Assembly (NCBI RefSeq): GCF_003144535.1
Contig: NZ_PHFJ01000001.1
Coordinates: 496,001-560,000, forward strand
DNA: 64,000 nucleotides
Direction of reading: 5' to 3'
Source of the DNA: Proteus penneri
GTDB taxonomy: Bacteria; Pseudomonadota; Gammaproteobacteria; Enterobacterales; Enterobacteriaceae
Below the pieces are notes generated by a model that searched no databases, was not told the origin of the DNA, and saw nothing but the letters and a program-made list of their open reading frames with translations. The translations under genes and the position numbers were made by a program. Below, piece by piece: positions 2,068 to 32,337 of this stretch (position 1 is its first letter; each line of letters begins with the position of its first letter).

Positions 2068-3141
2068 ATGATTAACGTATTGCAAAATTTAAAATCATAT
2101 TTATCTAATAGAGCATTATCTGCGCCTGATTTGACACATAACAATCTATCTTTAAATAATACTTCTCTCCCAGGTAACTTACTAAGTTGTGAAATAAAAA
2201 ATAAGGACATCACATTGAGTAATAGAAATAAAGATTTTGAAAATGAAAAGTTTAAAGATATTAAATTTGATTTTTTAGCTTCTAATCTAAGTAATGTTAA
2301 TTTTACAAATGAAAATCTCGATGGTGTCGAACTTAATTCTAAAACGAAATCTTTTAATAAAACTGAAAGTGCTTATCTCTTAAACGGAAAGTTAAGTGGT
2401 AATACATTAAATAAATTAAACACAATAAATACAATAGATGATAAATACAAAGAAATAAAAATAAAACTTGTAAAACAGATTATAGAATCAATAAATAATA
2501 GTGGTGAGGTGAAGTTGGAATCATTTCCTATTGATTCAATAATTGATAATATAACGTCTAAGAAATATTATTTAGAAGATGGTGTTATTAAAGATTTTGC
2601 TGAAAATTTATTAAATACTAAGTATTTAAAAGAGAAGGTTAACATGTATTCTGATAAGCTCTCTTCTGGTATTTTATCCTTTAATTTAGATCTAATCAGT
2701 GAACTTGATAATGAAAAAGTCAAAGAATACATGATGAAAAAAAATGGATGTTTTATTAAATTGATGGCATTGACTGTTTATCATGATGACTTAGCTATTC
2801 AGGAAAAAGGAAGGTCTTTATACAATAGTTATCTTGAAATAGAAGAAATAAAAGACTTTGCTAAAGAAGAAAATCTTTGGAATAATAAAACAGTTGACTG
2901 GAGCGATAAGAAAAATAAAAATTATATTATTGTAAGTGGTGATAAAACGATAGTTGTTAGCCATGAAGACCTAGTAAATATGTTATTTCCTGATGAGATA
3001 GGGATGAATGCAAGTTGGAGTAAGTTTTCTCTTTATATCAAAGGTAAAAGAAAACTTATTGAACAAACTAATTATTATGACTTATTTAATAAAGACTTTG
3101 AGATGTTTAAAGATAGTTATAATGCACTCCACAAAAAGTAA
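2068..3141 (+). CDS. Orphan AT-rich protein, possible secreted effector
   Basis: Not recognised by family. The 357-residue product is rich in Asn, Lys, Ile and Ser and has no signal peptide or membrane segment. Residues about 60-95 contain loosely repeated pentapeptide-like steps (FLASNLSNVNFTNENLDGVEL), a pattern seen in the N-terminal part of some type III effectors such as SopA/NleL, but too short here to fold as a full right-handed helix. The remainder is mostly predicted helix. The start has a good ribosome site (GGGGAG, 2056-2061). The gene stands alone between two operons and its base composition is more AT-rich than its neighbours, as is the effector-like gene at 29392. An effector role is inference only. 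Confidence 0.55.
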   Translation: MINVLQNLKSYLSNRALSAPDLTHNNLSLNNTSLPGNLLSCEIKNKDITLSNRNKDFENEKFKDIKFDFLASNLSNVNFTNENLDGVELNSKTKSFNKTESAYLLNGKLSGNTLNKLNTINTIDDKYKEIKIKLVKQIIESINNSGEVKLESFPIDSIIDNITSKKYYLEDGVIKDFAENLLNTKYLKEKVNMYSDKLSSGILSFNLDLISELDNEKVKEYMMKKNGCFIKLMALTVYHDDLAIQEKGRSLYNSYLEIEEIKDFAKEENLWNNKTVDWSDKKNKNYIIVSGDKTIVVSHEDLVNMLFPDEIGMNASWSKFSLYIKGKRKLIEQTNYYDLFNKDFEMFKDSYNALHKK

Positions 3142-3373: not shown

Positions 3374-5053
3374 CTAAATAATCAAATTATAATTTATATG
3401 TTCCATTAATTTAGCGTTATCACAGTAATCGACGGGAATAGCAAGAACAGCAGGGCCATTAACAGTCATTGCTTCATGCAAGACGGTACGTAATTGAGAA
3501 GCACATTCAACAGAAAATCCTTTAGCTCCGAAGGATTCAGCATAACGTTTAAAATCAATTGCACCAAATTTTACGCCAGAATAACGACCATATTTTTCTT
3601 GCTCTTGCATTTCTACCATATTATAAGCGTTATCTACCCAGATAATATGCAAGATATTTGTATTTAAACGAACCGCAGTTTCTAATTCCATGGACGATTG
3701 CATAAAGCCACCATCACCAGAAACAGAAATAATTTTATCAGAAGGTCGAACAAAAGAAGCACCAATTCCCCAAGGTAATGCAACTCCCATAGTTTGTTGT
3801 CCATTAGAAATTAACATTTGTCTTGCTCTAAAGCTATAAAGATAACGTGCAAGCCATATATGAAAACTTCCCATATCAATACAGAGTGTTACATCGTTAT
3901 CAATAATATTTTGCATCTCATGGATGATGGTTAAAGGGTGAATAGGGGAACCATGTCGAAAATAACTATTTTGTTGTAAAATTTCTCTTTGGTGACGAAT
4001 TTTCTCTAAAATCTGACGAGTATTATTTGAGAGTGTAATTTGAGATGTAGATTGTTTAGCAAAATACTGAGTTAAATTATTAATTGTTAATTTGATATTA
4101 CCTGTTAATTCTAAATCAGGACAGTAAGCTAAATCAATTTCAGCAGGGATCTCGTCTATATGAATAATATTGGCATTATTGTGGTTCCATAATGACGGTT
4201 CATATTCTATAGGGCTATAACCCAAAGTAATCACTAAATCGGCATGAGATAATAACTCATCACCCGGTTGATTATTAAATAAGCCAATACGGCCAGCAAA
4301 CAAAGGAAAATGGCGTTGAGCGATCGCACCTGCTGATTGATAAGTGCCTACAATCGGGAGCGGGCAAATATCGAGTAGTGATTGTAATGCTAATGCATTT
4401 TCAGGGTAACTAACTTGTAGTCCTAATAAAATAACGGGGCTTTTAGCATTCAGTAGTAATTTAACGGCTTCTTGGATAGCATCATTATTAGCGCTCCCCA
4501 TATTAGATTTTGATTTTGGTACTAATATTGGGCTATCAACTTCATTATTTAAAATATCCATTGGAAAAGTTAAAAAAGCCGAACCTGGTCTTCCTGATTC
4601 TGCATGGCGAAAGGCATTAGCCATGGTTTCAGAAATAGATTTTGAAGAATCAATTTCTGCACAGAATTTAGTGATAGGATTAAACATGGTAACGGTATCC
4701 ATGCTTTGATGAACTAGTTTTAATCTATCTGAGGACTTTACTGCTCCTCCCAATGCAACTAATGGATCGCCTTCTGATGTGGCTGTGGCGATGCCTGTCG
4801 CAAGATTAGAGCATCCAGGTCCCGATGTTGCGATAGCGACTCCCGCTTTGCCTGTTAAACGTCCAACTGCGGCTGCCATAAAGGCAGCGTTAGCTTCATG
4901 ACGGACCACCACTGTTTCAATAGTTGAATCAACAAGAGAATCAAATACACGATCTATTTTTGCACCCGGAATACCAAATACTTGTTTAATGCCATGTTGT
5001 TCTAATTGTTTGACAACTAAATCTGCACCACATTTCCAATGAGAAGTATTCAT
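3374..5053 (-). CDS. alsS: Catabolic acetolactate synthase
   Basis: The 559-residue enzyme joins two pyruvates into 2-acetolactate with thiamine diphosphate, the first step of acetoin/butanediol fermentation. The N-terminal pyrimidine-binding domain has the catalytic glutamate region (VVRHEANAAFMA, about residues 48-59), followed by the TSGPGCSNLATG loop. The C-terminal diphosphate-binding motif GDGGFMQSS...VDNAYN lies at about residues 444-478. The LVHQSMDTVTMF segment and the absence of an FAD-type insertion fit the catabolic AlsS/BudB type rather than the biosynthetic IlvB type. No small regulatory subunit gene is nearby. It lies 67 bp downstream of budA on the same strand, forming a two-gene unit. 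BudB is an alternative name. Confidence 0.93.
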   Translation of the reverse strand: MNTSHWKCGADLVVKQLEQHGIKQVFGIPGAKIDRVFDSLVDSTIETVVVRHEANAAFMAAAVGRLTGKAGVAIATSGPGCSNLATGIATATSEGDPLVALGGAVKSSDRLKLVHQSMDTVTMFNPITKFCAEIDSSKSISETMANAFRHAESGRPGSAFLTFPMDILNNEVDSPILVPKSKSNMGSANNDAIQEAVKLLLNAKSPVILLGLQVSYPENALALQSLLDICPLPIVGTYQSAGAIAQRHFPLFAGRIGLFNNQPGDELLSHADLVITLGYSPIEYEPSLWNHNNANIIHIDEIPAEIDLAYCPDLELTGNIKLTINNLTQYFAKQSTSQITLSNNTRQILEKIRHQREILQQNSYFRHGSPIHPLTIIHEMQNIIDNDVTLCIDMGSFHIWLARYLYSFRARQMLISNGQQTMGVALPWGIGASFVRPSDKIISVSGDGGFMQSSMELETAVRLNTNILHIIWVDNAYNMVEMQEQEKYGRYSGVKFGAIDFKRYAESFGAKGFSVECASQLRTVLHEAMTVNGPAVLAIPVDYCDNAKLMEHINYNLII

Positions 5054-5120
5054 ATAGCCTTCTTTAATTTTGCAAGTGAATAAAAAATTAGATTGAGAAT
5101 AAAATGAAGCGGCTTTTAAA

Positions 5121-5948
5121 TTAATTTTCGGCTTGCTCTATTGCCTGGTGAAGATTATCTGGCATTAAGTTCGCTTGGAGGAAAGTTGAATGACAGGGTA
5201 AGTCAATAGTAAGGCGGGAAATAACACCGATTTGTAAGGTACCTTGTTTTAAATAATAATCAAGGACGTGACCACCGCCTTGGCGTTGTTGATTAATATA
5301 ATGTTCATGAAACCCTGCAATATTTATTCCTTGAGTAAATTGTGGTGAGCGAAATCCAGCAATAATTCCGGTCTCATTGTGAAATGTAAAAATAGGTTGA
5401 TTTTCGATAGCCTCTAACATCGGAAGATAGGGTGGTGTTTGACGGGGGACGGTACGTGTTTTGACTAATTCAAATTCGCCTTCAATTTTGATCGCACAAA
5501 ATAGATTGTCAGAAGGAACATACTGATTAATGATATTGTGTATCTCTTTTTGTGATGCACCATAAGAAAAGTGATGTTCAATATCACAATTAAAAAATGT
5601 CATTACAGCAAAAGGAGATTTTTGAGAATGCAAAGCTTCACGAGCACTACCATCAGAGCGTAATTGAAAAACATTATTGTCGAATGCAACGAGTTCGCCA
5701 TCAAGTTGTTCAAATGTGCCTAAACCAAAATCACCATGCTTTAATAATTCAGCAATTGTGATATCACTATCATAAACACCTGCAATCAAACTGCTCATTA
5801 ATGAGTTTTGATAAACAGTACACTCAGGATGTTTATTAATATAATTATTTAAGTTTGTAATTATTTCTCGTCCACATTGACAATAATTATTTTTATTATT
5901 TTCTATATCACTATTATCTCGCACATTAGATTGAAAATTATTATTCAT
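5121..5948 (-). CDS. budA: Alpha-acetolactate decarboxylase
   Basis: This 275-residue cytosolic enzyme decarboxylates 2-acetolactate to acetoin. The family hallmarks are present: the DFGLGTFEQLDGEL strand (about residues 73-86), a GFRSPQF segment, and the zinc-binding histidines in IAGFHEHYI and GGGHVLDYY near residues 210-230. The first roughly 40 residues (Asn-rich, with CxC at 23-25) extend beyond the usual start of the domain. It is first in the operon and is followed by alsS. A butanediol dehydrogenase gene (budC) and the LysR regulator usually found next to bud genes are absent here, so control must come from elsewhere or from the long upstream region. Confidence 0.93.
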   Translation of the reverse strand: MNNNFQSNVRDNSDIENNKNNYCQCGREIITNLNNYINKHPECTVYQNSLMSSLIAGVYDSDITIAELLKHGDFGLGTFEQLDGELVAFDNNVFQLRSDGSAREALHSQKSPFAVMTFFNCDIEHHFSYGASQKEIHNIINQYVPSDNLFCAIKIEGEFELVKTRTVPRQTPPYLPMLEAIENQPIFTFHNETGIIAGFRSPQFTQGINIAGFHEHYINQQRQGGGHVLDYYLKQGTLQIGVISRLTIDLPCHSTFLQANLMPDNLHQAIEQAEN

Positions 5949-6646
5949 GGTAAAGTCATTCCTTTATTTAAGAAACAATAATCATTAACTGATTATGAAT
6001 TAAGTATTAGCCTTGTTCATAAATATTTCAAATGTTTTTTATTGTAATTAAATAAGAAGTGATAGTTATGATTGTGTAAATTAAATATAACTTAATTTTT
6101 ATAATTAATTATTTTTTAAAAGAAATTAATCAGTGGGATTTTATTAATAAGATAGAGTTATAATATATGATAAGTGAAAGAGCTAGCTAAAAAGAGTTAG
6201 ATTAATAGTTTTATAGGTGAGTTACTAGAAAGATAAATTATCTTTTGATATCTAAAATATGTGCTTTGGGTGACGAAAGTGTATGCGAATAGGTTCAGGA
6301 AAAGACGTGAATGTAATAGTGAGTATTGTAGTTTCTATTTGTAATTATTAGTTAATGGAAGGAAATTTTTTAATGACAAGATTTAAATTAAAATGAAATA
6401 TCGATAAAAAACCCACGAATGATTCGTGGGTTTAGATATGATGTTTAATATAAATAGCTATTGCACATTAAACCTAAATTTATTGTGTATCATTTTGATT
6501 TATAATGATTTAATTTTAAGTTGTTTATTTTGCACTCAGCGGTGTACTCATTTAGAACAAGGTGTCTGCTAAAATAGTACTTATAAGATTATCAAAGTAA
6601 AATTACATCAGTATAAAACACTAATCTATTGCATAGAGTATAACAT
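5949..6646. other. AT-rich intergenic region upstream of budA
   Basis: About 700 bp with no credible coding frame. The part next to 5948 should hold the bud promoter. A terminator-like hairpin lies at 6409-6433 although no plus-strand gene ends before it, so it may end a small RNA or a lost gene. I found no regulator gene and no repeat array. Confidence 0.55.
6409..6433. terminator. Orphan hairpin terminator
   Basis: AAACCCACGAA (6409-6419) pairs with TTCGTGGGTTT (6423-6433) around a 3-base loop. A-runs lie on the left and a short T-run on the right. No recognised gene ends here on either strand. Confidence 0.6.
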
Positions 6647-6683
6647 AATCTGACAGGCCGCTTGGTGCTAGAAGCGGACGTTG
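6647..6683. repeat. Left copy of 37-bp inverted repeat
   Basis: The segment starts AATCTGACA and ends AGAAGCGGACGTTG. It matches the reverse complement of 10769-10805 with both end blocks identical (9 and 14 bp) and a 14-bp centre about half identical. It also contains its own small stem, CCGCTT...AAGCGG (6658-6677). It bounds one side of the two-gene accessory unit. Confidence 0.75.
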
Positions 6684-6766
6684 AAAGCTACACCATGTGT
6701 TAAGTAATGGAAATACAGAATAGGGATCGATAATGTTTATGGCAGCTATCAAGGCTGTAACCATTC

Positions 6767-7275
6767 AACAATTGCCGTAAGGCTAATTTAGAAACAAAAT
6801 TTCGGCATGTTCAACTGTCAGATGGTCGCTCAGTCCGCTTACTGAATATTATCAATGACTTTAATCGTCAAGCCTAGTACTAAAAGCTGATTTGCCTCTA
6901 TCCGCTATTTGTGTCGTTAGGATTTAGTGGGATATCGATTCGCTATGACAATATTCCAGAATATGTAGGTAATACTCTAATAGCATGGGCTAAGTAATAG
7001 CATGGGCTAAGCAACAAGGTATCAGAATAAACTTTATCCTATAGGGTAGATCCTAGCAAAATGCTTGTATTAAACGTTATAATGAGCAGCTTGCTATGGC
7101 TGACTTAGTCAGAATCTCTAGCTCAATAAACGAGAGGCTGGGATATTCTACAAAGTAGCAATGATTTTATAATCATGAGCAACCGAATATGGCGTAGAAT
7201 AGCTTTATACCAATGCAACATACACATCACATAAACTGATTCTACTTATTACCATTTAAAAATGGGGAGAGATTA
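6767..7275 (+). pseudogene. IS3-family transposase (OrfB) remnant
   Basis: Several frames on the plus strand read as broken pieces of an IS3-type DDE transposase. DGRSVRLLNIINDFNRQA (6822-6875) matches the region around the first catalytic Asp. IRYDNIPEYVGNTLIAWAK (about 6938-6994) matches the second catalytic block, usually R-DNGPE-. Later come AKQQGIRINFI and a C-terminal YNHEQPNMA. Stops and shifts separate them. A 17-bp unit (TAATAGCATGGGCTAAG) is tandemly duplicated at 6978-6994 and 6995-7011 and itself breaks the frame. No intact OrfA or clear terminal repeats remain, so the element is dead. The boundaries given are approximate. Confidence 0.8.
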
Positions 7276-7346
7276 CCATTTACCCTACCTCTCCTTATAT
7301 TAAAAACATTCACTGCTTGAGTGGCGGTATAGCGAGGCACAGGGAA

Positions 7347-9077
7347 ATGTCATTAGAAGAAATAAAAACCTGCTTACTGGCTGCAAATAAAACGGCGGAG
7401 AGTCTGCTTGCTCAAGTTAGCGATTTTTACGCCCAGGAACGACGTTTTGAAGAGAACATTTTGACAGAAGCACTATCTGAGTTGCACAACTCAGGGGAGA
7501 TTGACTTCGTCAAAATAGTAAAAGGAGTTGATAAAAGTTCCTGCAAAAACGATTTTTTTAGGATTTTGAATTCCTTTGAAAACACACTACCTTTACTAAA
7601 CTCAAAAGTTGAAGATGTCCTACATTGTCTGGCTCATCTTAAGCAACAAGCCGATAGTGGTGGAATCTATGGGGCCTTTCAGCATTTCTGTAATGTGGAT
7701 GCACAACGTTCCAAAGATAGTGTTGAATTTATCCTGAAACAAAGTGAGCTTAGTTCGTATGCCACTTTTCTTTCCAGTTCAATCCTCGCATATGACTCAA
7801 ATCGTATGGTTGAGGCTATCCAAACGACAGAAAATCTGATTACTAACAGTAATCAGACTGTCAGAAACCAAGCCTATTTTATTTTGGGGAGGCTCAATGT
7901 CGATGAAACTCAGGCAAGTATCATCTGGGGGCTACTTAGCGCTAGTGCCGTGAGTGAGGATGACAGCGATTGTCGTGCTTCGATACTGAGGGCAATACTT
8001 CACTTCGGGGAAAAATTTCCAACTTACTGGTCGCAAATAGAAGAGCTTCTAATTCCGTTTGTTGGTGTAGCTCCTCCTGAGATACTCTATGCAATATCGA
8101 ATATTATGGCATTTCAAAGTGGCGATCTTCCAGAGAGTGTTCTGCGTCTTCTGGTAAAACAGTTAACCAATATCTCCCCAGAGCACACAGGTACCGTAGA
8201 TAACATTGATCATTTACTAGTCAAGTTGGTTGAAGGTAATTCATGCTCTCTTGCTGTCGAATTATTGGAATCGATTTTGGCTGTGGGTGTGGAATTTACA
8301 TCACTAGACTATTTCTCCAACGAGCTATTGGATAAGCATCAAGAATTACGCAATCATATCACCACAAAGTGGTTTTTATCTGGAGAATCATCACTTTGTC
8401 ATGCGATCTCAGATCTGCTTCATGATGTAACGGGTAAGGACATAGAGCTAAAGGCAGATATGGCATTGCTAGGGGATGATAAGTGGCAAGCATTTGTTAG
8501 CCACAAGGCGATCGGTTGGCTGTTTACACGACCTATCGCGGCAGCAAGTTTCATACTGTCTATTTGCGAAACAGCTTCAACAACTACACTTCACAACCTT
8601 GAACAGGTTTTGTACGATCCTTTGCTCCTAAGTTACCCGGGAGAGCTTGAACGATTCTTCCTATCATGCATTGATAAAGATGTTCAAGGACAACTGTGTG
8701 AGCGCTTGCTTGGAAAACTTCAGACCTATCACGCTGATATTGAGAAAGTGTCTGAATTGAATGAGTTAATGGCTCCCAGTGAAAATGTAAGAGCCTATTG
8801 GAAAGACTTTGATAAAAGTATGCAAGAAGCCCACGAAAACGCATCAAAATCTTCTATTCTTCAGATAATTGCGACGAAGCAGAGATTATTGTACGGCAAC
8901 AGTTCGATTTATTATATACATCAAGGAGATGGGGACCCTGTACGACAGGAGACGCAAATGCACTCTTTTTCCCATTCGACTGAAATGCCAAGATTGAACG
9001 TTTTAGATCCTGAGTCGCTAGATTACGTTTTGCGCATGTATCGCTACGGGAGAATGAAAAATGAAGCTAATTCTTAA
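7347..9077 (+). CDS. Alpha-solenoid-like protein, first gene of a two-gene accessory unit
   Basis: Not recognised. About 576 residues from the ATG at 7347, which has GAGG 10 bases upstream; a TTG at 7317 would add ten residues. The protein is almost entirely predicted helix. Residues about 120-330 show successive paired helices with the spacing of HEAT/ARM-type repeats (for example the stretches around SELSSYATFLSSS, NQTVRNQAYFILGRL and DCRASILRAILHFGE). There is no signal peptide, membrane segment or Walker motif. The C-terminal about 70 residues look more irregular and may be a separate tail. Its 3' end overlaps the start of the nuclease-like gene by 17 bp, implying translational coupling. 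A scaffold, sensor or inhibitor of the nuclease is a reasonable inference, but the function is unknown. Confidence 0.7.
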   Translation: MSLEEIKTCLLAANKTAESLLAQVSDFYAQERRFEENILTEALSELHNSGEIDFVKIVKGVDKSSCKNDFFRILNSFENTLPLLNSKVEDVLHCLAHLKQQADSGGIYGAFQHFCNVDAQRSKDSVEFILKQSELSSYATFLSSSILAYDSNRMVEAIQTTENLITNSNQTVRNQAYFILGRLNVDETQASIIWGLLSASAVSEDDSDCRASILRAILHFGEKFPTYWSQIEELLIPFVGVAPPEILYAISNIMAFQSGDLPESVLRLLVKQLTNISPEHTGTVDNIDHLLVKLVEGNSCSLAVELLESILAVGVEFTSLDYFSNELLDKHQELRNHITTKWFLSGESSLCHAISDLLHDVTGKDIELKADMALLGDDKWQAFVSHKAIGWLFTRPIAAASFILSICETASTTTLHNLEQVLYDPLLLSYPGELERFFLSCIDKDVQGQLCERLLGKLQTYHADIEKVSELNELMAPSENVRAYWKDFDKSMQEAHENASKSSILQIIATKQRLLYGNSSIYYIHQGDGDPVRQETQMHSFSHSTEMPRLNVLDPESLDYVLRMYRYGRMKNEANS

Positions 9078-10764
9078 ACAATATTTGGCTTCACTAAAAG
9101 AACGAGCAGAATTAGATGCTGTACTGCCAGACTTGTTGAGTAGTATGGGTCTGAATGTGTTTATCTCACCGACGCGTGGGGTTAAAGAGTATGGTGTTGA
9201 TATAGCAGCCGTAGGGCGAGTCAATGGTGAGGAAGAAAAAGTTTATTTGTTCTCAGTTAAATCTGGGAACCTTACTCGTGAGACTTGGAATGGGGCAACA
9301 GCCCAAGCTCTTATGCCTTCGTTAGATGAAATTCAAAACTCATTTATTCCTAGCCGTATACCATCTGAACATAGAAATAAGAAAATAGTTATTTGCTTAT
9401 GTTTTGGTGGAGATGTTAATTCAGGAATTAGGCAAGATGTATCTGGTTACGAGCAACGAAATACACGAGACAATATCTCTTTTGAAGAGTGGAATGGCGA
9501 TAAATTATCAGAGTTTATTCAACGATATTTGTTGAAAGAAGAGTTGCTACCTAGCTCAAGTCAGGCTTTGTTAAGAAAATCCTTAGCCTTACTCGAAGAG
9601 CCGGAGAGTTCAAGCAAATACTTTTCTCTATTGATCGATAAGGTGCTGTCAAACGCCACCGATACTGATTCTGTTGCATCGTCCATAACACGGATAAACG
9701 TCTGCTTATGGGTTCTATTTTCATGGTGCCGTGATGGTGGAAATTTAGAAGCCGCCTATCTTTCATCTGAGCGAGCATTACTATTGGCTTGGGATAAAGT
9801 TAAAGGCCACTATACAGGAAGGAACAAATTCTCAAAATCATTTGATAGTATTTTAGATACTTACCAACAAGTTACTGATTGTTATGTGGATCGATGTTTA
9901 ATTCCGTATGTTGAATTTAGATATGCGCTTTCGCATGCTGTTCACTCACCTTGTTCTATTGATGTAAATATTAGGCTCTTTGATGTGTTAGGGCGCTTAT
10001 CAGTCAAAGGTCACTGGATTTTAGATTTACTATCAAATAGTTACGTTGAGAATCCACCAGTGCGCGGAGATAGTGAAGAACAAGAAAAATTATGTCTGCG
10101 CCTTAGAGAAATAACAAAGTCAATTAGCCTGTTGGTTGTTAATAACCCAATACTATTGTCACCATACAAAGATTCGCAAGCCATTGATATTGGTTTGGCT
10201 CTAACGCTGCTTTCAAATAATTCAGAACTCGACGAATTTGTGCGGAGCTGGCTCTCAGAAATGGTCAATAGGTGCATATTCTCTTTTGAGAGTAATGGCA
10301 TGTATCCAGTTGTGCATGAGTCTTACGAAAATCTGCTTGAACATAGGAAAAAAGACAGGGCTGACAATAGTTATAAGAATAAAGTTACGGAAGCCAGTAT
10401 TTTATACCCGTTGCTAGCAGTATTTTGTTCTCTGTATAAATTAGATTCAATAAGCCAAAAACTAGAAAAATTTGCCGCAGATAAACTAAAACATTGTACG
10501 TTACAATACTGGTATCCAAATCAAGACAGCGAACAAAGTATGTACTCGAACTCAGATATACATGGTTCAGCATCAACTCACTTTCCAATGAATGGAAAAT
10601 TAGCAATAGGGCATATAGTTCAAGAGTGCGGCAATTCCGATTCGTTCAAAAGATTGTCAGCCGTTACTGAAGGGAAGGCTCCATTGGTACTGACAGCCTG
10701 TCGCTGTTACCGATATCCAGTGCCTTTCCATTATATTGAAGATTGGCTGCTAGATCCCCTATAG
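9061..10764 (+). CDS. PD-(D/E)XK-like nuclease-domain protein, second gene of accessory unit
   Basis: A 567-residue protein. The N-terminal about 165 residues resemble Mrr/restriction-endonuclease-like domains: a first helix containing Glu15/Glu18, then GVKEYGVDIAAVG with Asp47, then the strand VYLFSVKSG with Lys67. This gives the D-(X)n-(S/Q/E)-X-K core, with Ser65 in the position often held by Glu or Gln. A following strand (KKIVICLCFGG) and an SFEEWNGDKLSEFI element complete the fold. Residues about 170-567 are helical and unassigned, perhaps a target-recognition or sensor part. The start ATG has GGGAG at 9047-9051 and lies inside the end of the preceding gene. No methylase or helicase accompanies it, which argues against ordinary restriction-modification. 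The nuclease call is inference from motif spacing. Confidence 0.65.
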   Translation: MKLILKQYLASLKERAELDAVLPDLLSSMGLNVFISPTRGVKEYGVDIAAVGRVNGEEEKVYLFSVKSGNLTRETWNGATAQALMPSLDEIQNSFIPSRIPSEHRNKKIVICLCFGGDVNSGIRQDVSGYEQRNTRDNISFEEWNGDKLSEFIQRYLLKEELLPSSSQALLRKSLALLEEPESSSKYFSLLIDKVLSNATDTDSVASSITRINVCLWVLFSWCRDGGNLEAAYLSSERALLLAWDKVKGHYTGRNKFSKSFDSILDTYQQVTDCYVDRCLIPYVEFRYALSHAVHSPCSIDVNIRLFDVLGRLSVKGHWILDLLSNSYVENPPVRGDSEEQEKLCLRLREITKSISLLVVNNPILLSPYKDSQAIDIGLALTLLSNNSELDEFVRSWLSEMVNRCIFSFESNGMYPVVHESYENLLEHRKKDRADNSYKNKVTEASILYPLLAVFCSLYKLDSISQKLEKFAADKLKHCTLQYWYPNQDSEQSMYSNSDIHGSASTHFPMNGKLAIGHIVQECGNSDSFKRLSAVTEGKAPLVLTACRCYRYPVPFHYIEDWLLDPL

Positions 10765-10768
10765 TAAA

Positions 10769-10805
10769 CAACGTCCGCTTCTCGCTCAAACCAGATTGTC
10801 AGATT
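10769..10805. repeat. Right copy of 37-bp inverted repeat
   Basis: It begins CAACGTCCGCTTCT four bases after the nuclease-like gene and ends TGTCAGATT. It is the inverted partner of 6647-6683, with the same overall length and the same 14-bp spacing between the two identical blocks. Confidence 0.75.
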
Positions 10806-10806
10806 T

Positions 10807-10839
10807 AATTGTGCTAACAGTTAACCTGTTAGCACAATT
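10807..10839. repeat. Perfect 14-bp palindrome, possible terminator or recombination site
   Basis: AATTGTGCTAACAG (10807-10820) is followed by TTAAC and then the exact reverse complement (10826-10839). It abuts the right inverted repeat. There is no T-run after the stem on the plus strand, so it is a weak intrinsic terminator at best. Because it is so exact it could also be a protein-binding or recombination site. Confidence 0.6.
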
Positions 10840-10854
10840 CTGAATAATGTGAGG

Positions 10855-11190
10855 CTAAATTTGGCTTTTCCAATAAATCAAATATCGCAAATAATCCCCT
10901 CCATCCTCTTGCAGACCATGCACCAACGGTTTCATGCTTTTATTGGGGAAGTCAGGCCACTCACCAATTCCTCTTGTTTGATGAATGTTTTCCTCACCGA
11001 GGCTTTCCCAGCCAGCCTCATTCGGCACCCATAAACCTTGCCACTCTTCCTGTGCTATACGTTATCTATATATGGCTATAGTATGGGGATATTGGGATTT
11101 GCTATTTTCGCCTAGACCACGAGTTGTTGCTCTTAACTGATCGCTTTGAGTAGCTGGCACGGGTGTTTGACGCTTTCTTGGTTTTTCTAA
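10855..11190 (-). pseudogene. 3' remnant of an unrecognised gene
   Basis: Reading the minus strand toward a TAG at 10855-10857 gives a protein-like frame of about 110 codons broken by a single TAA. The upstream part is basic (EKPRKRQTPVPATQ). The downstream part (EEWQGLWVPNEAGWESLGEE, then GEWPDFPNKSMKPLVHG and DGGDYLRYLIYW) is rich in Trp, Gly and Asp and looks like the C-terminus of a real protein. I do not recognise the family. No start codon is credible, so it is a truncated and stop-interrupted relic in the mobile region. Confidence 0.5.
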
Positions 11191-11246
11191 TTACCTACTA
11201 AAAAATGGGGTTAGCGGTAACTCCACTAAAAAAGGTATTTGCGTAA

Positions 11247-11279
11247 TTCAATTTACTATTAACAACATGGTAAATTGAA
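11247..11279. promoter_or_regulatory. Inverted repeat abutting a start codon, possible operator
   Basis: TTCAATTTAC (11247-11256) and GTAAATTGAA (11270-11279) are exact inverted copies separated by 13 bases. The right arm ends directly at the ATG at 11280. Such placement suits an autoregulatory operator, or a hairpin that hides the ribosome site, for the now-broken gene that follows. Confidence 0.5.
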
Positions 11280-12656
11280 ATGACAGCATATATCACCAAA
11301 GATAACATTCTTGTTACAGAAGCTACAGTAGAAGCCTATAAAGCAATTGTTCTGAGCGTTCCCTTTGATAATACCGTCGATCAACGTCATAAACCTCAAT
11401 ATTACAGTGAAATTGGCTTGTTCTTACAGCATATTATCTGTAGTGCGACGGTTAGCAAAAATACGAAGAAAAAATCGAGGTTTAAAGGAGATAAAGAGTG
11501 GACGTATTCAGTACCATTTTCCGCTGAACTGGGAAAAGAGAAATTTCCTATGATTTTTAAGCAAAGTCGCGATTTAGGCTTAGAACGCGGTTTAGAGTTT
11601 TTGGAACAAGCTAAAATCATTAAAATTATCCAACATAGCTATGGAACCCATAAGTGCCGAGAATTTGCTTTATCTAAAAGTGTCCTTAAAGCTTTATTTC
11701 CCGGTAAACGAAAGGATTATCTTAAACGTACAGATCGCTATACCTATTTGACGAATATTTTGATAAGCGTAAGAAACCCGAAACACTGTATGAATTGATG
11801 TTAAAAAGCTCTATTCCAACGATTATGTATCAGAAATACTGGAACATTGGAAATTAGAGACAACAGAGCTACGCGAAAGCATAAATCAACTCATTGACGA
11901 GTATCTAAAAATAGGAAAGAAAAATAGGCATGGGCTTTCTGTCGTGAATGAGGTTGAGCAACCATTTAATACGACAAAGCGAAAAACAAAAAATGGGGAA
12001 TGGAAAAAGTGGCATCGTGATGTGATGCGACGTAAGTTACTTGCTCACATGATTCAAGGGTTAGCAGTAACACGATATCAGGTGATATTGATACTCCCCA
12101 AGTTAAAATTAGAGATCAAGGTATTGCTTTTTCTAATAGTGCTATTTTACTGACCGAGCAATTAATGGGCCAAGTAGTAACTGCATATAAAGCTAAAGAG
12201 AGAAAATCTAGATACTCACCGTTGACAGCCAAAAGGCTATTAACAACGTTAAAAGATAAAATTCCGGATATTTATAAAGGTTATATTCCAGACAATCCAT
12301 ATTTAGAAGTTAAACAAGATTTGTCCGCATATATTCCGATGAGAAAAAATGGATTAAGTGATGTTGCGACAGTAATATCTGCAGATTATTTAGATGTTGA
12401 GCGAAGGTCCACTCGTTTTTATGAAGCAATGAGAGATCTTTCTTTAGTAAATATGGCCTCCAAGGGAAAAACTAATTCAAAAAGTGCTTTTGTGTTAAAA
12501 CCCCAAGGGATGACCCGTTTATCAAACTCGCTCAGGAAGAGTATTGACGGTGAAATAGAGATGTTTAAGTACCAAGCCAAAGATAGAAGTTTTGAAGTGG
12601 TCATATGCGATGATTCGGATGATTTTGTCACTAAAGCATTATCTTGGTGCGCTTAG
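11280..12656 (+). pseudogene. Frameshifted gene, possibly a plasmid/element replication protein
   Basis: Three frameshifts split what was one protein of about 460 residues. The first piece runs from 11280 to about 11755. The frame then moves at DEYFDKRKKPETLYELMLK, again near 11822 at DYVSEILEHWKLETTELRE (running on through MNEVEQPFN and WHRDVMRRKLLAH), and near 12083 into GDIDTPQVKIRDQGIAF, which continues to the stop at 12656. Each shift joins uninterrupted sequence in the next frame, so they are real disruptions of one gene or sequencing indels. The family is not recognised. The basic, helical character and the operator-like repeat at the start suggest a replication or DNA-binding protein, but this is a guess. 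Confidence 0.7.
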
Positions 12657-12681
12657 TTAATTGAATATAGATGTTTTTTAT

Positions 12682-12759
12682 GAGCTGCGTTAAGGTTACA
12701 TTTGCCCAAATCATATAACCTCCTTGATGTCGGTTTTTGATTTGGAACTAACGTAGCTC
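12682..12759. repeat. Imperfect nested inverted repeat
   Basis: GAGCTGCGTTA (12682-12692) pairs with TAACGTAGCTC (12749-12759) with one mismatch. Just inside the left arm is AGGTTA, and a TAACCT follows within the loop, giving a second small stem. It could fold into a forked hairpin of about 78 bases. It does not fit integron attC core sites. Function unknown. Confidence 0.4.
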
Positions 12760-12865
12760 TCACATAAGATGTAAGAGTAACTTCTAACTTCCTCAGTTCG
12801 CTCAAAGCAGATGGAAATGAAGTGACATTGTGCTGTAAAATTTTTAACTAGAAAAGTGATCTATA

Positions 12866-12893
12866 TTGCCATATAAAACAAAGCTGATAAAAT
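12866..12893 (+). promoter_or_regulatory. Sigma70-type promoter for the small ORF at 12924
   Basis: A -35-like TTGCCA (12866-12871) and a -10-like TAAAAT (12888-12893) are 16 bp apart. They sit 31 bp ahead of the ATG of the 54-codon gene. Confidence 0.5.
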
Positions 12894-12923
12894 GCACTAT
12901 CTTCAGTTTGAAGTGAGACTACC

Positions 12924-13088
12924 ATGAAAAAGAATGAATTAATTCAAGCAACAAGACCAACTCGTACTCAACTTATTCGTTCGGTAGCAACCTCTACGGC
13001 GATTGAAACAGGGCAGGAGTCTCGTCGTCTTGAAGAAGAGATGAAAGCGAAGCGTGAGAAGTTTGGGCACTTGAAACTCGCGATTTAG
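12924..13088 (+). CDS. Small basic protein, possible Fic antitoxin
   Basis: A 54-codon frame with a plausible promoter and AAGTGAG about 10 bases before its ATG. The product is basic and helical, with an Arg-Arg-Leu-Glu-Glu-Glu stretch. Small Fic inhibitors (VbhA/YhfG-type) carry an inhibitory helix with the motif (S/T)xxxE(G/N). Here Ser24-Thr-Ala-Ile-Glu28-Thr and Ser33-Arg-Arg-Leu-Glu37-Glu come close, but neither has the final Gly or Asn. Its stop overlaps by four bases the stop of the Fic gene on the other strand. Known antitoxins usually lie upstream on the same strand, so this convergent layout is unusual and the role uncertain. Confidence 0.5.
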   Translation: MKKNELIQATRPTRTQLIRSVATSTAIETGQESRRLEEEMKAKREKFGHLKLAI

Positions 13089-13702
13089 TTCGTTTTCAAG
13101 GCTTCGTTAACCCAATATTTCATGGGTTCATAGTTAAGGTTTAACCCTGCGTGGATTGCTGCAATATACTGCTCGGGGTGTTGAGTCCAACGTTCATAGT
13201 CTAACGGCTGGTAGCCTGCTTGTACTGCCATCACATCAGCAAGTAAGCGCGATAAGCGCCCATTCCCCTCCCTAAACGGATGTATCAGAATTAACTCCAC
13301 ATGCACTGTGGCTATAGCTTCTATGACTTGTTCTCGGCTCATATTGGTGCAGGGTGTGTACTTCGCTAGAAACTCTTTTTCAAATTGAGCAAGTAACTTT
13401 GCAACTCGACTCGCAGGGGCAAACATAAAGCCACCCTTGCTAATATTCACTGTACGTAACTGACCAGCCCACTCGTAAACATTCCCTAACCATTGGCGGT
13501 GCCAACGCTGAATAAGTGATACGGTAATTTGCTCAGTGGAAAATTGTTCTTCAAAAATGACTTGATACAGTTTTTCTAACAGGACAAGCTCAGCATCATT
13601 GATATCATCAACGTTTGAAAGCCCTAGCTTATTAGCTAGCACTTCTTCATCAGAACCATCAGCAAATTTTCCTTCGCTGTTAAACACATCGTATTTATTC
13701 AT
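13085..13702 (-). CDS. Fic/Doc-family protein (probable AMPylase toxin)
   Basis: A 205-residue Fic-domain protein. The catalytic loop HPFREGNGRLSR (residues 141-152) matches HxFx(D/E)GNGRxxR fully, so it should be able to transfer AMP or a similar group to a target hydroxyl. The beta-flap region (NISKGGFMFAPASRV, about residues 86-100) that positions the target is also present. No own inhibitory (S/T)xxxE(G/N) motif is visible at the N-terminus, so an external antitoxin would be expected. It resembles the short Fic proteins found on mobile elements. Neighbours are a small convergent ORF on one side and an integrase stub on the other, placing it in the accessory island. Confidence 0.88.
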   Translation of the reverse strand: MNKYDVFNSEGKFADGSDEEVLANKLGLSNVDDINDAELVLLEKLYQVIFEEQFSTEQITVSLIQRWHRQWLGNVYEWAGQLRTVNISKGGFMFAPASRVAKLLAQFEKEFLAKYTPCTNMSREQVIEAIATVHVELILIHPFREGNGRLSRLLADVMAVQAGYQPLDYERWTQHPEQYIAAIHAGLNLNYEPMKYWVNEALKTN

Positions 13703-13844
13703 ATAAGCGTGTTCTTGTGGTGTGGGTATGAATTTTGTACGTTATAATGCTAAAAACATCAGATAAATAATAACTACCTATAAATCAACGGATTAATTAA
13801 GTGTAGGTTGAATTGTAGGTTTTGCTGAAAAATAATAAATATCG

Positions 13845-14005
13845 TTATATTTCAACGCCAACACGCCCATGCATCATGATTTTGCGCTCTTCAAGATAAG
13901 TTGCATGATTATATGAACGTCTAACGCTATTTAAGTCCATATGGGCTAATTGTGCTTCGATAGCATCAGGTCGATATCCTAACTCATTTAATCGCGAGCT
14001 TTTAT
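13845..14005 (-). pseudogene. P4-type tyrosine integrase, 3' remnant
   Basis: The minus-strand frame ending at the TAA at 13845-13847 reads RLNELGYRPDAIEAQLAHMD, then NSVRRSYNHATYLEERK. This is the C-terminal block of P4-like phage/island integrases with the LAH histidine and the catalytic-tyrosine segment. Everything before it, including the box I arginine, is gone: the frame becomes unrelated upstream of about 14005. It marks the edge of a former integrated island. No intact integrase occurs elsewhere in the window. Confidence 0.8.
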
Positions 14006-14024
14006 GAAACTTAATGAGACATAA

Positions 14025-14070
14025 AAAAAAGCATAAAGCCCAGTTAATGTTATGAATTTTATGCTTTTTT
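14025..14070. terminator. Bidirectional terminator downstream of ychF
   Basis: AAAAAAGCATAAA (14025-14037) pairs with TTTATGCTTTTTT (14058-14070). On the minus strand it follows the stop of ychF and provides a T-run. Confidence 0.75.
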
Positions 14071-14117
14071 ATTATGAAATGATACTTTATGAAACAGTAT
14101 GAGACTAGAGTGTAAGT

Positions 14118-29259: not shown

Positions 29260-29391
29260 TATGTCAGCTTTCAAAAAAAATACTTTTCTTAAATTCCATA
29301 TAATGTCATAAAAATCTAGTTGTAAAAAGATATCCTTTGCAAATTATCTTGTTGATTATTTCCTCATTATTTTAAAATGATGAGGTATATT

Positions 29392-32337
29392 ATGGTTAAT
29401 GGAATAAAAAAGATAGACAGTAAATTAACACCTATGGGCACTTTTCATGGACGTAAAGAAGGAGACTTGGTAAGAGATATAAAGAATAGCGATAGTATCT
29501 ATACTAAAACGTGTGATAAGCAAAAAGAAGAAAAACAATTTAGCTTAAATAACATTAATAACTATGTATATTTAGGCTCAACCAATACACCTTTACTTAA
29601 TAATATGGGGATCACGCTTGCAGATGATGGTTCTTTGATCTTAATTAAAGGAAAAACATATGATTTATTTACAGGAGTATATCAAAAACATTTTAATGGA
29701 GGATTTAAATATAATGTTTTTAATATAGAGTCTCAAAAAGTTGATAGCATGAAGTTTAAAGAACTTTATGTTGATTATAATGGTTTTTTAATTGGAAGTA
29801 AGAGAGGTGAAAATAAATCTAATAGTATAGAAGAAACCAAGAATGAGTTATATAAAATTAAGTTTAATAAAATTGAAAAAGAATATGATTTAAATGATTT
29901 TTCATCAAATAATATTGATGGTAACTTTATTGTTGAGTATGAAGAATATATAGTTAATGATAATCAAAAACAAGATTTATCAAATATTAATAATGTTGTT
30001 GAATTAGAAGAAAATAATATTATAAAAATAAATAGAGAAGGTCTAAACATTACAGTTGAAGTTAAAGATAACCAGCTTTTTACAACTGGATTACCTGCAA
30101 TATTAGAGTCGGAATATGATCAGTTTGACTATGCTAAAACTGATGGTAATATTGAACTTGAAAAGCATAGAATAAAACTTCCATTGAAGAAAACTGATAA
30201 AATATTAGCTATTAAGCCAATATTAAATCAGATTCAAATTATTGTTGATAAAGGTAATAAAATAAAAATATATTATCTAGATCCTTTCAATATTTTTGCG
30301 ATTAAAGATTATCAGTATGAGGTTACTCGTTTAAAACAGGAGCCTCCTTTATCTTTTTACTCAATGGTTGGTGAAAATAATTATAAAAATTATCATTCAG
30401 GACAACCATTTTCGACTCAGACAATCGGAAATTTTAGTAGCCGAAATATCCCTTTTTTATCATCTCTTATTGATAATATTAGAGTAAATGTTAGTAAGGC
30501 TAAAGAACAATATGCATTAAAAAAATATCGATCAATGTTGATAAATATTGCTAAAGCTATTGATCCTGGATTTATAGGAACCGTTTGTAATATAAAACGA
30601 CTTATTAATTCTTCGAACACTATATATAGAAGTAAGCCAATGGCATTACATGGTATTAAAGAAAATATAAGGAAAGGCTATGATGTGTTAAATCGTATTG
30701 TGAAAGGTGTAAAAAATGGTTTAACACAAGGTGAGGTAATTCATTTATTGGTTAATGATCTAAAAAATAAAGAAAGTATTACAATCGGACACCATAATGA
30801 GCTTTTAGCTTTCTTTGGTTTTAATGCATTTAGTTTACCCTATAATATAGGAGTTAACGCTTTTATATTAGCTTCTTATGCAAAATCGCACTCAATTACA
30901 TTATCAAAAAGTGAAGATAATAAAATCACTTTTTCTTTTATTAATAATAAGACGAGACTTTTATCTACGGGGTTGTCCGCGGGTATTGGTGGATATGAAA
31001 AAAGATGGGGTACAAAAAGTGTAAATTATGGTTTTGTTACTCCTGTCATGGCAAGCGCTATATTAAATGCCACTTATGCTAAAAAATCTAATTTCTCATT
31101 TAGTATTGATATTAGCGAGGTCAAAAATTTTATTAATCAAGGGCTTAATTTAAATGAAAATGAATTAATCACTAATACTATCCTTGAAATGGATAAAAAT
31201 ATGAGTGTTTCTGTGGGAACTGAACTAAGAAATGAAGTGAGTTTTGATGTTGATGTAGTTGCTAATCCCGATATGGAATTAACTATACCAAGAAATGCTA
31301 TTGGTGTAAATTTTATTCTCAATTTATTAAAACTAAATTTAAATATTAATGAATTAATTGATATTGGTGAAACAGATGTCACAAAAAAAACAAAAAGGCT
31401 TGATCTCAGTTTAATCGAGCTTGGTTTTGATTTTTATCGTGATTTGAGAATTATGCCTTCTACAACGACTTCTGATTATTCTGTTCAATGGTATCCATTA
31501 ATATCCGTAAAAGATTTCGAATTAATGGTGAAAAAAAGAATAAATAGCTTATTGAATTTTACACTTTTTAAAAGTGAAAAATTAATAGAAGCAGAAACTC
31601 TGGAGAAAGATAATAAAAATATAAAAGGAATTTATAAAAGAGTATTAAAGTTAAATAAGTTATTAGAAAGTTATCCAGAAAAATATCAACTTTCTAATAA
31701 TATTAATAAATTAAATAAAGTCTATTTAAATTTATCATCAGATAAAAATCCGATTAATGAATTAAAAGATAATGTTGATGAAAATGTTATTACTGATGAA
31801 AATATTATTACTGTCCCACCTCAAAGTAAAGAAGATAATTTTCAGAATCAAATAACAAAGGAAAATAGACAATATAATATTCGCCTTTTTTTAGCCTCAT
31901 TAAAGGAAAGAAAAGAGACTTTGTCTTCTCAGAAAAAAAATAACATGAATGAAAAATTTAAGCCTTATTTTATATCTAATTATCAGTTGAATAAACAAGG
32001 GTGCTCAATTCGTTATGATTTAAAAAAAGAAATAAATCATCTAATTGAAGAGTGTAGAAGTAATAAAAAAATTGATTTAAATATAATCAAAACAAAGCTG
32101 GATGATTTATATACTGAATATAAACAGCAGTTTACTAATGTTAAATATCAAATTGAATCTACAGATATTATGTCTATTAGTGAATATTCATACAAAAAGA
32201 AAACATTACCAACAATATTTATACGACCAAACAGTGAAAAAGCGATTACGCATACTCAAGTTAAAGGGAATATTAATTATATTTTTAATGGGGATGAAGA
32301 GACAATCGAAAAAATATCAACTAGTTATTATTTCTAA
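29392..32337 (+). CDS. Large AT-rich protein resembling AvrE/DspE-family type III effectors
   Basis: About 981 residues from the ATG at 29392 (GATGAGG about 7 bases upstream). There is no signal peptide. The N-terminal half is beta-rich with repeated short strand pairs such as MGITLADDGSLILIKGKTYDLF, compatible with a beta-propeller. The middle (about 370-500) is helical. The next part has alternating-strand segments and the block SFSIDISEVKNFINQGLN, which resembles the repeated "FT-P--E---FI" barrel segments I remember from AvrE/DspE/WtsE effectors. The C-terminus is helical and Lys/Asn-rich. Those effectors are usually longer (about 1,600-1,800) and have a chaperone gene beside them; none is seen here. 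It is more AT-rich than its neighbours, suggesting acquisition. The family call is tentative. Confidence 0.5.
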   Translation: MVNGIKKIDSKLTPMGTFHGRKEGDLVRDIKNSDSIYTKTCDKQKEEKQFSLNNINNYVYLGSTNTPLLNNMGITLADDGSLILIKGKTYDLFTGVYQKHFNGGFKYNVFNIESQKVDSMKFKELYVDYNGFLIGSKRGENKSNSIEETKNELYKIKFNKIEKEYDLNDFSSNNIDGNFIVEYEEYIVNDNQKQDLSNINNVVELEENNIIKINREGLNITVEVKDNQLFTTGLPAILESEYDQFDYAKTDGNIELEKHRIKLPLKKTDKILAIKPILNQIQIIVDKGNKIKIYYLDPFNIFAIKDYQYEVTRLKQEPPLSFYSMVGENNYKNYHSGQPFSTQTIGNFSSRNIPFLSSLIDNIRVNVSKAKEQYALKKYRSMLINIAKAIDPGFIGTVCNIKRLINSSNTIYRSKPMALHGIKENIRKGYDVLNRIVKGVKNGLTQGEVIHLLVNDLKNKESITIGHHNELLAFFGFNAFSLPYNIGVNAFILASYAKSHSITLSKSEDNKITFSFINNKTRLLSTGLSAGIGGYEKRWGTKSVNYGFVTPVMASAILNATYAKKSNFSFSIDISEVKNFINQGLNLNENELITNTILEMDKNMSVSVGTELRNEVSFDVDVVANPDMELTIPRNAIGVNFILNLLKLNLNINELIDIGETDVTKKTKRLDLSLIELGFDFYRDLRIMPSTTTSDYSVQWYPLISVKDFELMVKKRINSLLNFTLFKSEKLIEAETLEKDNKNIKGIYKRVLKLNKLLESYPEKYQLSNNINKLNKVYLNLSSDKNPINELKDNVDENVITDENIITVPPQSKEDNFQNQITKENRQYNIRLFLASLKERKETLSSQKKNNMNEKFKPYFISNYQLNKQGCSIRYDLKKEINHLIEECRSNKKIDLNIIKTKLDDLYTEYKQQFTNVKYQIESTDIMSISEYSYKKKTLPTIFIRPNSEKAITHTQVKGNINYIFNGDEETIEKISTSYYF

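Follow-up and report, generated by a model that had tools for sequence, protein, structure and literature searches.

Olokun is a two-gene anti-phage system, made of the proteins OloA and OloB, that was reportedly founded in a 2022 paper by Millman et al. Passages of an Escherichia coli pan-genome study (PMC10121019) and of a study of Pseudomonas islands (PMC12629846) list it among defence systems, a passage on Enterobacter sequence type 78 (ST 78) calls it "not thoroughly characterized" (PMC12592470), a table in another article places it under nuclease activity (PMC10855318), and a review of 2026 groups it with systems whose mechanism is given as "Unknown" (PMC12926258). Our search of the open literature, to which subscription papers do not belong, found no paper on its mechanism. 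Gabija is also a two-gene anti-phage system and adjoins one of the Olokun relatives described below, but its proteins GajA and GajB are an ATPase-nuclease and a helicase, and neither is matched by the proteins studied here. Here we describe two overlapping genes at positions 7347-10764 of a 64,000-nucleotide stretch of Proteus penneri DNA (the window), which are almost certainly an Olokun system.

The Olokun gene pair

Both proteins match the Olokun profiles of PADLOC-DB nearly from end to end. OloA matches PDLC03925 with 392 bits (E 1.5e-117; residues 16-571 on positions 20-595 of a 596-position profile), and OloB matches PDLC03926 with 688 bits (E 3.8e-207; residues 1-562 on positions 1-553 of 556). 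The genes also have the Olokun arrangement, being adjacent and co-directional, with oloA followed by oloB and a 17-bp overlap. The window copy resembles the system in its mobile context as well, and nothing was found that distinguishes it. Judged by these sequence matches, the pair is a well-preserved copy of an already named defence system and not a new one. Its features are as follows.

7347..9077, forward strand: oloA, encoding the 576-residue alpha-solenoid (HEAT-like) protein of the Olokun system
8847..9074, forward strand: OloA C-terminal tail (residues 501-576), a candidate docking element for OloB
9061..9077, forward strand: overlap of the oloA and oloB frames, 17 bp
9061..10764, forward strand: oloB, encoding 567 residues with a restriction-endonuclease-like N-terminal domain and a helical C-terminal part
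9061..9537, forward strand: nuclease-like domain of OloB (residues 1-159)
9538..10761, forward strand: helical C-terminal part of OloB (residues 160-567), from the secondary structure of the model

The oloA gene starts with ATG at 7347 and its stop codon ends at 9077, while the mechanically called open reading frame begins earlier, with TTG at 7317. A preliminary description of this DNA had called both genes intact, overlapping and under selection, and all three points hold. In comparisons of the window genes with seven close relatives, the ratio of nonsynonymous to synonymous substitution rates (dN/dS) is 0.18-0.28 for oloA and 0.065-0.108 for oloB, values that indicate that both frames are held by purifying selection and that OloA diverges faster than OloB. 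A scan for promoters and terminators gave counts at the level of shuffled sequence (10 vs 11.6 expected; 3 vs 2.8 expected).

The two genes stay together among relatives. Scanning genome contigs with OloB identified 37 loci at 37-86% identity, with OloA directly upstream on the same strand in 35 and a contig boundary ending the other two. OloB occurs in 4 of 369 genomes of a class sample, our own genome included, and in 8 of 398 genomes of a phylum sample, always with an adjacent OloA; both tallies include one doubtful genome, G165, that is common to the two samples. The G165 locus (L042) matches the PADLOC profiles of both OloA and OloB, the latter with 171 bits, but gives no match to the OloB profile built in this analysis, and its adjacent pair is either a remote analogue or a product of a composite PADLOC model. 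The second protein of that locus ends GGITDLSL...PIELKA, which by eye resembles a D...ExK motif. One of the 398 genomes (G584) carries an OloA fragment without OloB, which is uninformative about OloB on its own. The OloA profile is not specific on its own: it matched 38 of the 369 class-sample genomes at E 0.001, and strongly only in the 4 that have OloB; the other 34 matched at E 1.5e-7 or weaker with at most 30 bits, 2 of 14 control genomes matched too, and we read these weak matches as cross-matches among helical repeats. For the phylum sample, an OloA cut-off of E 1e-10 was applied. More broadly, 14 of 5,426 E. coli genomes carry DNA that matches the pair (~75% alike over its length). Among plasmid records, 34 of 72,556 contain a match to OloB protein, and at E 1e-5 none of 50,697 records of sequenced phages does. 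Record titles place the family also in Chloroflexota, Nitrospirota, Cyanobacteriota and others, partly in metagenome-assembled genomes.

In locus L019, oloA is split across two frames. A 42-row alignment left out L031, L033 and L037, two of them truncated and one with oloB split in two frames. Structure alignment A1 comprised the window and 32 of 37 loci, and A2 the window and 31 of 35. Two Klebsiella plasmids carry a divergent Olokun pair (L050:7096-9674 and L051:7096-9686) in which OloA has 300 residues and corresponds to the C-terminal half alone, and OloB has ~24% identity with isoleucine at position 65; in L051, the pair lies beside a Gabija pair. Genome G529 (L065) resembles these two, with a short OloA match (415-586).

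The nuclease-like domain of OloB and the solenoid of OloA

The structure model of OloB, with a predicted local distance difference test (pLDDT) score of 88.0, contains in its N-terminal domain the alpha-beta-beta-beta-alpha-beta core of the PD-(D/E)XK superfamily, supporting the nuclease fold that had been suspected from sequence. By this model, the N terminus of OloB is a FokI-like restriction-endonuclease-fold domain. It was likened to the FokI cleavage domain (2fok, residues 395-561), with which it shares 7% identity; where FokI has a DNA-recognition part, OloB has its C-terminal part, which is helical in the model as had been expected.

Within the domain, D47 in the second strand (codon 9199-9201) and K67 in the third (codon 9259-9261) are invariant in all 50 OloB sequences compared, down to ~24% identity, as are E14, E17, D19 and R73. 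In the model, E14, E17 and D19 lie inside or just ahead of helix 15-28. The set of 50 includes close relatives, so its rows are not independent, and it leaves out G165. Position 65 is serine in 41 sequences, threonine in 4, isoleucine in 3 and valine in 2, and an aspartate, glutamate or glutamine two residues before the lysine does not occur. Therefore, we describe OloB as having the nuclease fold with a variant site and do not file it as a canonical PD-(D/E)XK member. Of the D47...S65-V-K67 core proposed in the preliminary description, the positions and the conservation of D47 and K67 stand, while S65 falls as a conserved catalytic residue. FokI carries D-x-K at the site that corresponds to S-x-K in OloB.

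Sequence searches with OloB miss the restriction-endonuclease folds AF1548 and MspJI, which score near unrelated rows, and a sequence search of the PDB found no credible relative, its two rows (E 0.56 and 0.025) being to unrelated proteins. With the whole OloB model, no Foldseek match reached E ≤0.001; the matches listed are filled by helical proteins such as 14-3-3, and those to the helical part are read as reflecting a common helical arrangement.

The balance moderately favours OloB being an active nuclease. It is less probable, perhaps a one-in-four matter, that the N-terminal domain is a catalytically dead nuclease fold that only binds nucleic acid, in which case OloB would sense infection and another step would stop the phage. 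The replacements at position 65, a metal ligand in (D/E/Q)xK enzymes, suit such a loss of activity. Binding-only relics of nuclease folds usually lose invariant residues of this kind, however, and the complete conservation of D47, K67, E14, E17, D19 and R73 argues against it.

The model of OloA is helical to about residue 508, with low confidence beyond about residue 460, and shows a superhelical solenoid of helix pairs of the HEAT-repeat kind. A second-look aligner working on Foldseek's list matched it to HEAT solenoids that include the PP2A A subunit, in agreement with the HEAT-like helix pairs noticed earlier. Identity to these solenoids is ~10%, and the conserved tail of OloA lies outside the matched part. 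Pfam HEAT does not match the window OloA, and HEAT_2 weakly matches 9 of 32 relatives (best E 0.009). The HEAT-like fold shared with the PP2A A subunit is common and does not imply a shared function. The C-terminal tail is the most conserved part of OloA, with a mean pairwise identity of 0.44 vs 0.27-0.31 for residues 1-310 (32 sequences). In the model of OloA alone, it is nevertheless largely of low confidence, with block pLDDT values of 38-65 over residues 501-560, and a similar tail can be seen by eye in the short Klebsiella OloA. Divergence of OloA and of OloB is correlated (r 0.974 over 32 pairs, with L008, L012, L019, L031, L033 and L037 left out of the distance comparison).

A toxin-antitoxin-like arrangement, in which OloA would be an inhibitor that phage attack removes to free the OloB nuclease, is about as unlikely as a dead nuclease domain. 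It fits with OloA being encoded first, with genes that overlap and occur together wherever both sides are readable, and with the faster evolution of OloA, but a large protein with a solenoid and a conserved tail is unlike typical small antitoxins. Still more doubtful is a modification-dependent (type IV, Mrr-like) restriction enzyme, in which OloA would recognise modified phage DNA that is then cut directly: the PADLOC type IV model was matched at E 0.052 only, and the Pfam families listed for the window proteins and their relatives include no domain that reads modified bases. Neither protein has a match to a Pfam family above cut-off or to any NCBIfam or PHROGs family, which makes the pair look new, but the undescribed defence system proposed in the preliminary description is excluded for practical purposes by the near full-length matches to both profiles of Olokun, which the literature passages cited above name as a defence system.

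Mobility and genomic surroundings

Comparison shows that the two genes occur as a single exchangeable cargo of prophages, plasmids and islands. In 15 loci compared with the window (13 close genome loci, one from E. coli and one from a Photobacterium plasmid), similarity covers all or most of the pair and reaches no more than 146 bp upstream and 24 bp downstream of it, apart from one stray match of 32 bp; the upstream comparison does not cover L008 and L012, where the contig ends. Because similarity is limited to the pair, the two genes are the shared unit. In E. coli, three copies are surrounded by prophage genes, adjoining tail-fibre genes and a broken IS4. We surveyed the neighbours in 11 annotated regions with an Olokun pair, which were chosen and not random (a twelfth, L053, is without annotation). 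By annotation, five have defence-type neighbours: a helicase and a methyltransferase in L045, Gabija in L051 (confirmed by profile), NACHT proteins in L052 and L059, and SIR2/TIR in L054. The others are three prophage sites and three regions without clear defence neighbours (L050, L057 and L058). The surroundings of homologues are thus mobile and sometimes of defence type.

In the window, the following elements flank the pair.

6805..7292, forward strand: relic of a broken IS3-family (ISKpn20/ISXac2-like) transposase, upstream and outside the system
6647..6683, forward strand: left arm of a 37-bp imperfect inverted repeat
10769..10805, reverse strand: right arm of the repeat, just past the oloB stop codon

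The insertion sequence (IS) relic is 63.8-64.0% identical in DNA to annotated IS transposases among the matches listed, with "integrase core domain" matches too, so that the decayed mobile region described earlier is confirmed upstream. The adjoining P4-type integrase is not: Phage_integrase (PF00589) has nine matches in the genome, all outside the window, and the nearest one on this contig is ~444 kb away. As had been stated, no methylase or helicase partner is found among the 10 neighbouring proteins scanned (7 with Pfam families and 3 without a match), and a restriction-modification system was rejected on this basis.

The inverted repeat (81%) brackets the pair together with the IS relic. 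Its 16-bp core has three exact copies in the genome, namely the two arms and one elsewhere (C18), and with up to 2 mismatches genome counts of 6 and 8 equal those of a backward control (5 and 9). Of 13 other loci scanned, 11 lack an exact 8-base core of the repeat, and L009 and L010 have it upstream; L002, L008 and L044 have, by eye, somewhat similar sequence after oloB.

The window at 14.1-39.0 kb has 83.3% identity over 82% to Proteus mirabilis, and in that species flanks matching window positions 3374-6115 and 14118 onward enclose different DNA, which marks a variable site. This site (6116-14117) lies between alpha-acetolactate genes and ychF, and P. mirabilis H110 has ~14 kb of different DNA there, with open frames of 1295 and 791 residues. 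Downstream of the pair, 13085-13702 (reverse strand) encodes a Fic-domain protein that matches PDC-S04, a candidate defence class of PADLOC (E 1.8e-98), and 12925-13702 has 92% DNA likeness to P. mirabilis, elsewhere on that chromosome. Positions 11280-12656 (forward strand) hold two short, apparently broken open frames; 12165-12656 weakly matches phrog_14695, a phage family without an assigned function (E 9.6e-6), and 11803-12059 has 73% likeness to DNA of P. mirabilis. Farther away, a gene of ~25% G+C (GC) at 2068-3141 (forward strand) matches NF011904, a family of secreted effectors of the HECT-type ubiquitin-ligase kind, weakly and only in part (68 bits, cut-off 500). Amid ordinary chromosomal genes, 29377-32337 (forward strand) encodes a 986-residue AT-rich protein (25-30% GC region) for which Pfam gives no match at E 0.01.

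A possible mechanism of Olokun

The observations support the earlier view that a helical-repeat protein is coupled to one resembling restriction endonucleases and kept with it as a pair. The two proteins look like a scaffold, OloA, steering a DNA-cutting protein, OloB. Overall, the best explanation is probably an Olokun pair with OloA in sensing or control and OloB as nuclease effector; the stricter division into OloA as sensor and OloB as effector is more tentative, at somewhat less than even chances. In this reading, the fast-changing N-terminal half of OloA would most likely sense an infection cue, and its conserved, flexible C-terminal tail would most likely dock on OloB and silence or position the nuclease until infection. 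Recognition of a phage product could then rearrange the complex, and OloB, most likely the DNA-cutting effector, would cut phage DNA, or phage and host DNA.

It is possible, if rather unlikely, that OloB is an active FokI-fold nuclease in which E14, E17 and D19 around D47 and K67 replace the missing acid of the third strand, forming a rearranged metal site that is completed or gated by the OloA tail.

A candidate new system is therefore closed as a known one. Olokun, whose mechanism the 2026 review lists as "Unknown" (PMC12926258), gains a domain map and specific targets for testing, namely residues D47, K67, E14, E17 and D19 of OloB, the tail of OloA and a half-length form of OloA that occurs naturally. 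If the rearranged site is indeed gated by the OloA tail, the half-length Klebsiella OloA would identify the C-terminal half of the protein as the switch and its N-terminal solenoid as an exchangeable sensor.
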